Below are positions 9,633-52,879 of a stretch of DNA of 64,000 bases, in pieces. The notes beneath the pieces were generated by a model, which did no database searches, had not been told where the DNA came from, and was given only the letters and a program-made list of their open reading frames with translations. The stretch lies in assembly GCA_947471505.1 (NCBI GenBank), contig CANIWM010000021.1:1-64000 (forward strand), given 5' to 3'. A program made the position numbers and the translations under genes. The stretch's first letter is position 1. The number at the start of each line of letters is the position of its first letter. This DNA comes from Chthoniobacteraceae bacterium (GTDB taxonomy: Bacteria > Verrucomicrobiota > Verrucomicrobiia > Chthoniobacterales > Chthoniobacteraceae).

Positions 9633-10109
9633 ATGAACGCACCATCCATCCAATATCCGCCGATGAGCCCGTACATCTATGTGCCTGACGCGCAGAAGGC
9701 CATCGAGTTTTACCAAGCAGCATTCGGGGCGACGGAGCTTTACCGGCTCACGGATGCGAAGACGGGCAAGGTTATTCATGCCGAAATCATGCTCAATGGC
9801 AGCCACATCATGCTTGCGGATGAGAATGCTGAGTGGGGCACGAAGTCGCCGCTGACGCTGGGTGGAACGGTGGGCAAACTCTGCCTCATGGTGGAAAATG
9901 CGGACACCGCAATCGCTCGCGCCACCGCTGCCGGAGCGACTGCGGAGATGCCGCCGTGTGATATGTTTTACGGTTTCCGCTGCGGGTCGATTCGCGATCC
10001 GTTTGGCCACCAATGGCTCATCCAACACGAGATCGAAAAAGTCACGCCGGAGGAAATGCAGCGCCGCTGGGATGCGATCATGGAGCAAGGCGGCTGCCAG
10101 TCGGAGTAA
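9633..10109 (+). CDS. VOC family (glyoxalase/PhnB-like) protein
   Basis: A cytoplasmic 158-residue protein of the vicinal oxygen chelate fold. A strong GGAGGCGGGA ribosome site lies directly before the ATG. The two beta-alpha-beta-beta-beta repeats are visible. The first runs from YIYVPDAQKAIEFYQAAFGA to GSHIMLADE, and the second from KLCLMVENADTAIARATAAGA to IRDPFGHQWLIQHE. The DPFGH.W motif with an acidic residue nearby is typical of the PhnB-like/bleomycin-resistance branch. Substrates vary widely in this family, so no specific activity is claimed. Confidence 0.85.
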   Translation: MNAPSIQYPPMSPYIYVPDAQKAIEFYQAAFGATELYRLTDAKTGKVIHAEIMLNGSHIMLADENAEWGTKSPLTLGGTVGKLCLMVENADTAIARATAAGATAEMPPCDMFYGFRCGSIRDPFGHQWLIQHEIEKVTPEEMQRRWDAIMEQGGCQSE

Positions 10110-10180
10110 TCCCTTTTGCGCTGTACCATAGTGCGGCGAGCTTTGCGTATGGGAACGCGACATCCCGACCTGGAGGGATG

Positions 10181-10279
10181 TCACTTCCAGTCGAGCCAGT
10201 TCTCCACACGGAGGCCGGGGATTTTCTCGAAGTCCACGAGGTTGCGGCTGAGGAAGTGGGCGTCGTGGGCGATGCAGAT
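10181..10279 (-). pseudogene. C-terminal remnant of a VapC-like PIN-domain toxin
   Basis: Read on the minus strand, this 32-codon segment encodes IAHDAHFLSRNLVDFEKI followed by PGLRVENWLDW and a stop. That is the characteristic last strand-helix-strand of VapC-type PIN ribonucleases, including the late acidic residue in NLVDFEKI. A stop codon lies immediately upstream in frame (10280), so the catalytic N-terminal three quarters and any antitoxin gene are missing. The break coincides with the 3' edge of the structured RNA element, which suggests that a rearrangement joined the two. Confidence 0.65.
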
Positions 10280-10288
10280 TCAAGCCAC

Positions 10289-10326
10289 AAAAAAGAGCCG
10301 CCCCGGCCATTGCTGACCGGGACGGC
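10289..10326 (-). terminator. Intrinsic terminator of the candidate ncRNA
   Basis: A stem of about 14 pairs (10313-10326 with 10296-10309) is followed on the minus strand by C and six T. Read on the plus strand, two C-A mismatches appear and no T tract follows, so it serves minus-strand transcription. Confidence 0.75.
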
Positions 10327-10445
10327 TATAGTAGGCACCGACTACGAGAGTCGGTTATCCTGACGAGGCAATCGCCGAAGCGATTCCTCAAGTTCACCTC
10401 GCGGTGAAAGTGGTTGCGGCAAAGCACTGTCGCATGGACGAATTA
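10289..10445 (-). ncRNA. Candidate structured non-coding RNA with four hairpins and terminator
   Basis: In transcript order on the minus strand there are four successive hairpins. The first is at 10408-10393, a six-pair stem with GCGA tetraloop. The second is at 10389-10365, a ten-pair stem with one bulge and a UUCG tetraloop. The third is at 10355-10337, six pairs and a seven-base loop. The last is a long GC-rich hairpin at 10326-10296 followed by six U. The last stem is fully paired, using G-U wobbles, only when read on the minus strand, which fixes the orientation. The 5' end is uncertain; 10445 is an estimate. No open frame fits the region. It does not match tRNA, tmRNA, RNase P, SRP or 6S features known to me. 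Confidence 0.6.
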
Positions 10446-10552
10446 GGAGCAAATCGTGATTGAACGAACAAGCGTTTTTTGAGTTTTTTCGGCGGCGGTG
10501 CTTGGAGCGAAAAGTTCGCCTCCCCCGTGGCACGCGGCGGGCTATCTCACGG

Positions 10553-11275
10553 ATGCCTATGGCTGGAATGTGCGATACGTGCCACGCGGGCTGCTGCCGT
10601 GGTTATAACCTTCTTATTACGGCGTTCGATGCACTCCGCATCTCTCGTGATCTCAGTTTGCCCGTGGGCGAATTCAGCACGCTGTTGAGCTTCTCGGCGG
10701 AGCAATCGAAGCGGTTTGAGAACAGCTTCACGCCCATCAAGCTCAGTGACCTCGGTTGCTCGGAGAAACGATATTTCCTCGCGCTCCGACGGATCGAGAG
10801 CAAGCAGTTCCCCGGCACGGTGAAGTGCTATTTTTTGAACGAATGGCTGCGCGAACACGACGCGCCCAATCGCGAGGGGCACAGCGGGAAGCGCGTGATC
10901 GGGCGGTGCAGTATCTACGGCTCGCGCCCGATGATGTGCCGCACTTACCCGACTTCGCTGCATAACGAGACGCCGCTCGGTTTCATCTCCACGCCACGGC
11001 CCATCGACCTCGCGGATAAGCACGCGATTTACCAACTCTGCCCGGAGAAATGGACCGCCGAGGCGTTATCCACAGACCCGACGACGGTGCTGCACAATCT
11101 CGCGGTGAATCGCTTCGAGATGGATTTTTACAATCGCTCCATCAGCGAGTTCAACAAAGGTGGACACAAGGTTGCGGAGTTTTTCCCGTTCATGGCGCGG
11201 CTCTACGAAAACCGCTTCCGTACCGTCCCAAGTTTGATCTCCACGCCGCCTGTTGCGGTCGAGAAAACTGAATGA
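10553..11275 (+). CDS. YkgJ family cysteine cluster protein
   Basis: About 240 residues from the ATG at 10553; closely spaced ATGs at 10559 and 10568 and a TTG at 10460 are alternatives, since no ribosome site decides. Two Cys groups define the family: CDTCHAGCC near the start and CSIYGSRPMMCRTYP near the middle. Together they could bind zinc or an iron-sulfur cluster. The family is widespread and functionally unresolved. The 5' side carries the candidate RNA on the other strand, so transcription of the two diverges. Downstream is the first large repeat protein, 30 bases away, possibly cotranscribed. Confidence 0.75.
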   Translation: MPMAGMCDTCHAGCCRGYNLLITAFDALRISRDLSLPVGEFSTLLSFSAEQSKRFENSFTPIKLSDLGCSEKRYFLALRRIESKQFPGTVKCYFLNEWLREHDAPNREGHSGKRVIGRCSIYGSRPMMCRTYPTSLHNETPLGFISTPRPIDLADKHAIYQLCPEKWTAEALSTDPTTVLHNLAVNRFEMDFYNRSISEFNKGGHKVAEFFPFMARLYENRFRTVPSLISTPPVAVEKTE

Positions 11276-50193: not shown

Positions 50194-51316
50194 ATGGCAT
50201 TTGATCCCGCTTCCGTTGACACCTCTGCATTGAAGGCCCGCGTGGCCGAGATGCGGAGGTTCCTTTGACTTACCGAAACTCCAATCCCGGCTCGATGAGC
50301 TAGAGGGACTGATGGGCGAGCAGGACTTCTGGACGAACCAAGAGCGTGCGCAGGCGCAGGTGGAAGAAGTCTCCCTTTTACGCAAGAAAGTGCATCCTTT
50401 TCTGGAGTTAGAGAAGCGCCCCGACGACATCGCGATCCTCGTCGAGTTTGCAAAAGAGGACGCTGCCTCGGTGCTCGACCTTGAGCGGGAATACGCCGCC
50501 TTTTTGAAAGACATGAACGCCTTCGAGCTTGCGCAGTTCTTGAACGGCGCGAACGACCGCTGCAACTGCTTCCTCACCATCAACAGCGGCGCGGGCGGCA
50601 CGGAGGCGCAGGACTGGGCCGACATGCTCATGCGCATGTATGTGCGCTGGGCGGAGCGCAACGAATTCAAAGTCTCCACCGTGGACATCCAGCTCGGCGA
50701 AGGCGCGGGCATCAAGAGCGCCACGCTCAAAATTGATGGCGACCATGCGTTCGGCTATCTGGCGTGCGAGCGCGGCGTGCATCGGCTCGTGCGCATCAGC
50801 CCGTTCGACTCCAACAAACGCCGCCACACCTCCTTCGCCAGCCTCGACGCAGTGCCCGAGCTAAAGGAAGACGCGCCCATCGAGATCCGAATCGAAGACA
50901 TCAACGTGGACACCTACCGCGCAGGCGGAAAGGGCGGGCAAAACGTGAACAAAGTGGAAACAGCAGTCCGCATCACCCATCTCCCCACCGGCCTCGTCGC
51001 CGCGTGCCAAGTCGAGCGCAGCCAAGCGCAGAACAAGGCCACAGCGATGAAGATGCTCACCGCAAAGCTCTACCAGATGGAGCAGGACAAAAAGCGCGCC
51101 GACCTCAACGCCGCATACGGCGAAAAGCTCGACATCAGCTTCGGCAGCCAGATTCGCAGCTACGTCTTCCAGCCCTACCAGAAAGTGCTCGACCTACGCA
51201 CCGGCGTAGCCACGAGCGACATCCAAGGTGTGATGGATGGAGACATCAGCGGCTTCATCGAGGGAAAACTGCGCGGCCTCGTGCGAGTGAAAGGTGCGAG
51301 CGACGAAGACGAATAA
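50194..51316 (+). CDS. prfB: Peptide chain release factor 2 (programmed +1 frameshift)
   Basis: Releases finished proteins at UGA and UAA stop codons. Translation starts at ATG 50194, reads 24 codons to an in-frame TGA at 50266-50268, then shifts +1 (skipping T50266) and continues to 51316, giving a ~373-residue protein. The GGQ motif (residues ~247-249, [13 protein letters not shown]) contacts the peptidyl-transferase centre and the SPF motif ([11 protein letters not shown]) recognises the stop codon. The GTS/ECT-like pieces and C-terminal [15 protein letters not shown] are standard. The shift makes RF2 regulate its own level. Confidence 0.97.
50255..50269 (+). promoter_or_regulatory. prfB programmed +1 frameshift site
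   Basis: GGAGG acts as an internal Shine-Dalgarno sequence three bases before CTT-TGA-C. When RF2 is scarce, the ribosome slips from CTT to the +1 TTT and resumes at GAC; when RF2 is ample, it terminates at TGA. The arrangement is the classical bacterial site. Confidence 0.95.
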
Positions 51317-51339
51317 GTTGAGAGCAGAGCGTTAGTTGA

Positions 51340-51523
51340 GAGTTGAGAGTTGAGAGCTGAGAGACCGCGCGGTCTCTCAACCCTCAACCCTCAACTAGCC
51401 GTAGCTGCGACGCCCCCGTCGCAAAGGAGCGACAACGGCGGCGAGGCGCCGCTGGCACCACCTGCGACGAGGCGTCGCAGCAACGACCCGCTGTCGCGGT
51501 CTCTCAACCCTCAACCCTCAACT
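51340..51523. repeat. Palindromic repeat element between prfB and the GspF-like gene
   Basis: A long imperfect inverted repeat (51340-51367 with 51368-51396) forms a hairpin of about 28 pairs around a central GAGACCGCGCGGTCTC palindrome. Its right arm, a 29-base stretch, recurs as an exact direct repeat at 51495-51523. Between them, GCTGCGACGC near 51403 and GCGTCGCAGC near 51472 form a second inverted pair. No gene lies here. It may be a mobile repeat of the REP/MITE kind, and also serve as a 3'-end block for both flanking convergent genes. Confidence 0.7.
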
Positions 51524-51532
51524 CTCATCTCC

Positions 51533-52879
51533 CTAATGCGTCTTGATGCCGGACGTGAGGTTGAAGACTGCGACGAGGATGCCGTAGATCACGACGCCGA
51601 TGACGGCGGCGATGACGACCATGACCATCGGCGGGATGAGCGTGCTGACGACCTGCACTTGCTTGTCGAGTTCGCGCTCATACACGTCGGCGATGAGGTT
51701 CATCGTGTCGGAGAATTTGCCCGTTTGCTCGCCGACGCCCATCATGTCCACGAACATCTCGGGGAAGATATTCTGCGGAGCGGCTGCGCCTGAGAGCGTC
51801 GCGCCGTCCACGACGGAGGCGCGGAGTTCCACCATGCGGAGGCGCACGAATTCATTGTCGGCGACATCTTCGAGCAGCTCTAGCGCGCGGAGAAGCGTCA
51901 CACCGTTCTCGGTGAGCGTGCCGAGCGTGCGGGCAAACTGCGCGTAAAAGCGGTAGCGCGGGATGCGGCTGAAGACGGGGATGTGCCACTTGAATTTGTG
52001 CCACGCCAGCTTCCCGGCGGGGCTGGAGACTGCGGCTTTGAACAGCACGACTGCGCCGACGATTCCGCCGAGCATCGCCCACCAGTAGCTCGTGAGGAGG
52101 TCGTTCGCATCAATGAGCATCTTCGTCACGGCGGGGAGCTTGGAGTTCGTGTCTTTGAAAAAGCTGGTGAGCTGGGGCACCATCGTCGTCATGAACACGA
52201 GGATGAGGCCGATGCCCGCGACGACGAGAAACGCGGGATACATGAGCGCCTGCTGCACTTTATCGCGGAGGGATTTGATGTCGGCGAGATACACGGTGAG
52301 CCGCCGCAAAATCACCGACAGCGAGCCCGACGCTTCGCCTGCGGAAATCATGTTCACGAAGAGCGAGTTGAAGATTTTCGGGAAGTCCTTCATCGCTTGC
52401 GAGAGGCTCCGGCCATCGAGCAGCGATTGATGGAGCGACTGCGAGAGCGCCCGGAGTTTCGGCTGTTTCAGACGCTTCACGAGCACGCCGAGTGATTCGT
52501 CGAGCGTCATCCCCGCGCTGAGCAAATGGGCGAGCTGTTCGCAAAAAAGATACTGCTGCGCATGGCTGATCGTCGTCACCACCACAGGCGGGTTTGCAGC
52601 CGAAGTGGCCGTCCCATTTTTCGCGGACGATGCGGAGCTTTTCGTGGCCACCTGCTTTTGCTCCACCTTTGCCAGCGTCTTCTCGCCGCCTTTGTCTGGG
52701 GCTGGCAGCGCCTTCACCGGCGATTCCGCCGTGGAGGGACCGTCCGCCGCGATGATTTTGATGGGCGTGAATTTCTTCTGCTCTACTTGAGAGATCGCGT
52801 TTGAGCGGTCATTGGCAGTAATGACTCCATCGACGAGTTGTCCACTGGAGTCACGGGCGGTGTAGCGAAATTGCGGCAT
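51533..52879 (-). CDS. Type II secretion/type IV pilus GspF/PilC family protein
   Basis: Inner-membrane platform protein of 448 residues. It starts MPQFRYTARDSSGQLVDGVI, the family opening. Two GspF domains each have a cytoplasmic helical bundle (LFCEQLAHLLSAGMTLDESL; YAQFARTLGTLTENGVTLLRAL) followed by membrane segments (ALMYPAFLVVAGIGLILVFM; IPPMVMVVIAAVIGVVIYGI). A ~65-residue Ala/Lys-rich linker (residues ~45-110) is unusual. It works with an ATPase and a pilin assembly elsewhere in the genome, as none is adjacent. Confidence 0.93.
   Translation of the reverse strand: MPQFRYTARDSSGQLVDGVITANDRSNAISQVEQKKFTPIKIIAADGPSTAESPVKALPAPDKGGEKTLAKVEQKQVATKSSASSAKNGTATSAANPPVVVTTISHAQQYLFCEQLAHLLSAGMTLDESLGVLVKRLKQPKLRALSQSLHQSLLDGRSLSQAMKDFPKIFNSLFVNMISAGEASGSLSVILRRLTVYLADIKSLRDKVQQALMYPAFLVVAGIGLILVFMTTMVPQLTSFFKDTNSKLPAVTKMLIDANDLLTSYWWAMLGGIVGAVVLFKAAVSSPAGKLAWHKFKWHIPVFSRIPRYRFYAQFARTLGTLTENGVTLLRALELLEDVADNEFVRLRMVELRASVVDGATLSGAAAPQNIFPEMFVDMMGVGEQTGKFSDTMNLIADVYERELDKQVQVVSTLIPPMVMVVIAAVIGVVIYGILVAVFNLTSGIKTH

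Follow-up and report, generated by a model that had tools for sequence, protein, structure and literature searches.

The window, by which we mean the whole 64,000-nucleotide stretch of DNA that was analysed, contains on its minus strand (10408-10296) four consecutive hairpins whose loops are, in order, GCGA, UUCG, CUCGU and GCAA. This element is followed immediately by the C-terminal end of a vapC-like toxin gene. The neighbouring gene on its other side (10460-11275) reads on the plus strand, and therefore no intact minus-strand gene precedes the element. A first-pass annotation described the region 10289-10445 as a structured RNA that no protein frame explains, and indeed no recognisable protein frame accounts for it. 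The features of the locus, in minus-strand reading order, are as follows, where G000 is the genome of the window and G005 and G006 are genus-mates.

10416-10450, minus strand: upstream flank, in which TTTGCC-GCAACC is similar to the end of the vapC located before a short copy of the element on contig C74 of G000, a likeness too short for certainty.
10296-10415, minus strand: the whole element, very probably a copy of a ppdK 3' UTR and terminator region, with homology to post-stop sequence in G000 (C74), G005 (C162) and G006 (C126).
10393-10408, minus strand: hairpin 1 (H1), CACC-GCGA-GGTG plus two T-A pairs, with a GCGA loop of the GNRA type.
10365-10389, minus strand: hairpin 2 (H2), 10 pairs with one bulge and a UUCG loop.
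10331-10364, minus strand: hairpin 3 (H3), with 7 pairs in its upper stem (CCGACT..AGTCGG), which is closed by a CUCGU loop and stands on a short lower stem.
10288-10327 (stem 10327-10296), minus strand: hairpin 4 (H4), an intrinsic terminator of 14 pairs with a GCAA loop and a T6 tail.
10190-10288, minus strand: remnant of a vapC-like (PIN-domain) toxin gene, comprising the last 33 codons only, with an in-frame stop at the junction.

The first-pass annotation had recognised the four ordered hairpins, together with the GCGA and UUCG tetraloops of H1 and H2; the GCAA of H4, which is a second GNRA loop beside that of H1, went unnamed. The computed fold agrees with it, and reaches a minimum free energy of -68.3 kcal/mol over 131 nt, compared with a shuffled mean of -40.9 (z -7.5), and none of 200 shuffles was equally stable. 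Absolute stability of this kind is not unique in a G+C-rich window, the element ranking 9th in a scan of 3194 stretches, and it is therefore the z-score and the homologues, rather than the absolute stability, that place the element beyond chance. The match to covariance model R1 covers 10286-10416. The originally proposed extent stands as far as about 10415, where the structured part stops, and the remainder (10416-10445) is only flank.

In H4, 10 of the 14 stem pairs are G-C, and CTTTTTTG follows directly 3'. As a G+C-rich stem-loop with a T run directly after it, H4 has the form of an intrinsic terminator. It is the sole long terminator-like site in 9900-10900 and would work on the minus strand only, just as had been claimed. 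A scan of the same interval for sigma-70-like sites found no such promoter on either strand. H3 was also considered as a dispersed repeat, and occurs once in the window.

Elsewhere in the window there is a very strong palindromic region (51300-51520, minus strand, z -10.5), with repeat arms TTGAGGGTTGAG and CTCAACTCTCAAC. It is located between a release-factor-like gene (50312-51316, plus strand) and a GspF/PilC-like gene (51533-52879, minus strand), both named from reading their translations, and has the appearance of either a MITE-like palindrome or a convergent terminator.

Copies of the element start directly after the stop codon of one gene in G000, G005 and G006. In G005 this gene is ppdK, encoding pyruvate, phosphate dikinase (TIGR01828, 1273 bits), and its orthologues in G000 and G006 have 79% DNA identity to it. 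Three genomes thus have a copy directly behind ppdK, and the homologous element is therefore the 3' UTR of that gene together with its terminator. The homologues thus have a same-strand gene upstream, whereas the window copy has no intact one. G005 and G006 contain one copy each; G000 contains three in 6 Mb, which are the window copy and further copies on contig C74. All the long copies fold as hairpins followed by a terminator (z -4.8 to -7.6), and the G005 copy matches that of the window in having all four hairpins. The ppdK copies of G000 and G006 have no H3, and their H2 loop is GAAA, compared with UUCG in the window.

Covariation was assessed on an alignment of the four copies (A2, four sequences only), with shuffled and slid controls. 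In this alignment 96.5% of the cells pair, compared with 90.5% when shuffled and 30-45% when slid. Double-sided compensatory changes are seen at 7 pairs, 4 in H2 and 3 in H4, against a mean of 2.1 in shuffled and 0-1 in slid controls. The number of such pairs and the high pairing fraction relative to the controls support the proposal that pairing in the element is under selection, with the caveat that this is a comparison of four sequences. The reading as a structured RNA that ends in its own terminator, and whose stems carry compensatory changes, thus gains support from both the fold z-score and the double-sided pairs. The 22-nt core of H1, AACCACTTTCACCGCGAGGTGA, is nearly invariant, no two of the four copies differing at more than two positions. 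It is more conserved than the fourfold sites of ppdK, which are 61% identical between G000 and G005, and this hints at a possible sequence-specific role for the H1 core beyond termination.

The vapC remnant directly downstream of the window copy has 73% amino acid identity to the vapC1 homologue (tblastn, E 1e-12). At the nucleotide level it shares 89% identity over 101 nt with the vapC that lies downstream of ppdK in G006, and 83% with the one downstream of ppdK on C74 of G000. The order in G006 is ppdK, element, vapBC1. C74 carries, in order, ppdK, the element, vapBC2, a short copy of the element and vapBC1, where vapBC2 consists of an AbrB/MazE-like antitoxin gene and a PIN-domain toxin gene, and vapBC1 of a small gene followed by a second PIN-domain toxin gene. 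In the window, the vapC1 C-terminus comes directly after the element, and the small vapB gene and the rest of vapC are missing. Since the element runs straight into a truncated vapC and vapB is gone, the window locus would appear to be a displaced and decayed ppdK-element-vapBC junction. Its H3 matches the distant G005 copy and not the ppdK copy of its own genome, so that the present ppdK allele is not the donor. No counterpart of the gene at 10460-11275 was found in the genus, and so there is no empty site for comparison. In record L011 (478-2034), two different vapBC-like modules are found in tandem directly downstream of ppdK, with a shortened element between them.

The species distribution of the element is very limited. 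Among 40 genomes of the family, strong matches to the covariance model occur only in G000, G005 and G006, which is 3 of the 10 genomes of the genus, and in a set of 213 genomes from the order none of the others reaches a comparable score. When the best of the weaker matches were inspected, most proved to be ordinary terminators, such as those of groEL-like and RNA-binding-protein genes. G007, whose ppdK has 91% nucleotide identity to that of G005, has an unrelated 3' UTR that again contains hairpins and a terminator, and the other members of the genus likewise have unrelated but hairpin-rich ppdK 3' UTRs ending in a terminator. The ppdK 3' ends thus have a predicted architecture that keeps returning in changing sequence, which is the behaviour expected of terminators. 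When genome contigs were scanned for the H1 core, the hits were the two known genus records (L108 and L112) and 14 matches outside the genus, one of them in Akkermansia; these 14 reach no more than 30 bits with the model and were treated as chance. Plasmid, phage and viral-contig records contain no match to the element. The first-pass annotation found the element unlike the common RNA classes, and an Rfam search likewise gave no match at gathering score and none by E-value. The literature searched contains no description of it.

The window element, then, is homologous to the 3' end of ppdK, has a structure conserved by compensatory changes, and runs directly into a truncated vapC. It very probably derives, as a displaced copy, from the ppdK 3' UTR and intrinsic terminator of a Prosthecobacter-like verrucomicrobium, carried together with a downstream vapBC-like piece. 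From general knowledge of terminators, transcription of ppdK at the home position would end at H4, and the stable upstream hairpins and tetraloops would shield the mRNA from 3'-to-5' exonuclease decay, so that termination and 3'-end protection of ppdK mRNA are its most likely function. The window copy may have arisen by duplication or translocation of the ppdK-element-vapBC junction, followed by loss of vapB and most of vapC at the new locus. This would leave an orphan minus-strand terminator, which would at most stop stray leftward transcripts. With no gene to serve, it is probably a remnant. However, the window copy keeps good pairing, and its H2 pairs better than that of the ppdK copies, which counts against a wholly dead remnant, as such a remnant need not keep its pairing.

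The first-pass annotation suggested a small regulatory RNA or a verrucomicrobial RNA class, and it is here that the homologues, being ppdK 3' UTRs with terminators in three genomes of one genus, lead elsewhere. An sRNA released from the 3' end of ppdK mRNA and acting in trans, for example via H1, with the window copy as a second gene, is in our judgement unlikely. It would account for the covarying stems and for an H1 core that has stayed nearly invariant despite about 61% fourfold-site identity, and Gram-negative bacteria are known to make sRNAs from the 3' ends of mRNAs. However, most of the genus, including G007 with its closely similar ppdK, does not have the element, there is no sigma-70-like promoter site at the window copy, and the Rfam results, with a chance-level score for Spot 42, point the same way. 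That a regulatory RNA derived from the ppdK 3' UTR was duplicated with the toxin-antitoxin modules and persists as a stand-alone sRNA gene at the second locus is quite improbable.

A mobile repeat (REP/MITE-like, or a recombination site) that carries vapBC cassettes and preferentially targets the 3' end of ppdK is very improbable. Such an element would fit the three copies in a single genome, of which two lie on either side of a vapBC module, and also the ppdK 3'-end pieces with their own, different terminators that are dispersed in three genus-mates; against this, three copies in 6 Mb are few, neither terminal repeats nor a target duplication were found, and plasmid and phage records gave no match. 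A REP-like repeat family was rejected, the tested tail CTACGAATC being rare in the genus. Least credible, and largely refuted, is an independent verrucomicrobial class of structured RNA, whether riboswitch-like or an ncRNA gene. Such a class would be expected to have the strong fold and the covarying stems seen here (7 double-sided pairs, but in only 4 sequences), and also to be conserved apart from one neighbouring gene, whereas the homologues are found only as the ppdK 3' UTR or copies of it, and are narrowly spread; the weaker model matches that were inspected are mostly ordinary terminators.

Dispersed fragments of the ppdK 3' end, about 190-450 nt long and most with a terminator, are present in the genus-mates G003, G002 and G004 (L039 8694-8879; L040 7829-7642; L041 1740-1427; L044 2228-2682). 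Two of those in G003 share their start point in ppdK, one fragment lies where a trehalose synthesis gene (Glyco_transf_20 and Trehalose_PPase) ends, and one is near a tyrosine-recombinase fragment. The 3' end of ppdK is also indicated as a site of repeated DNA duplication in the genus. It is worth adding a caution, that a strong fold, a terminator, tetraloops and even compensatory changes can all be features of an ordinary mRNA 3' end that evolves fast and has been copied to another place.

Among known systems, Spot 42 (RF00021) has a similar length and hairpin-terminator layout, but its model gives 18.7 bits compared with a gathering score of 80 (E 0.35), which is chance level. MalH is an sRNA derived from the 3' end of malG mRNA (PMC8081044), and the element resembles 3'-UTR-derived sRNAs of this type in that the structured 3' end of an mRNA, with its terminator, makes up both. 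It differs in not being kept within the genus. The closest comparison is with the rho-independent terminator of an mRNA 3' UTR. The element has one or more extra hairpins upstream, and the window copy has lost its gene, but it shares with such terminators a 14-pair, G+C-rich GNRA hairpin followed by T6, positioned in three homologues directly after the gene.
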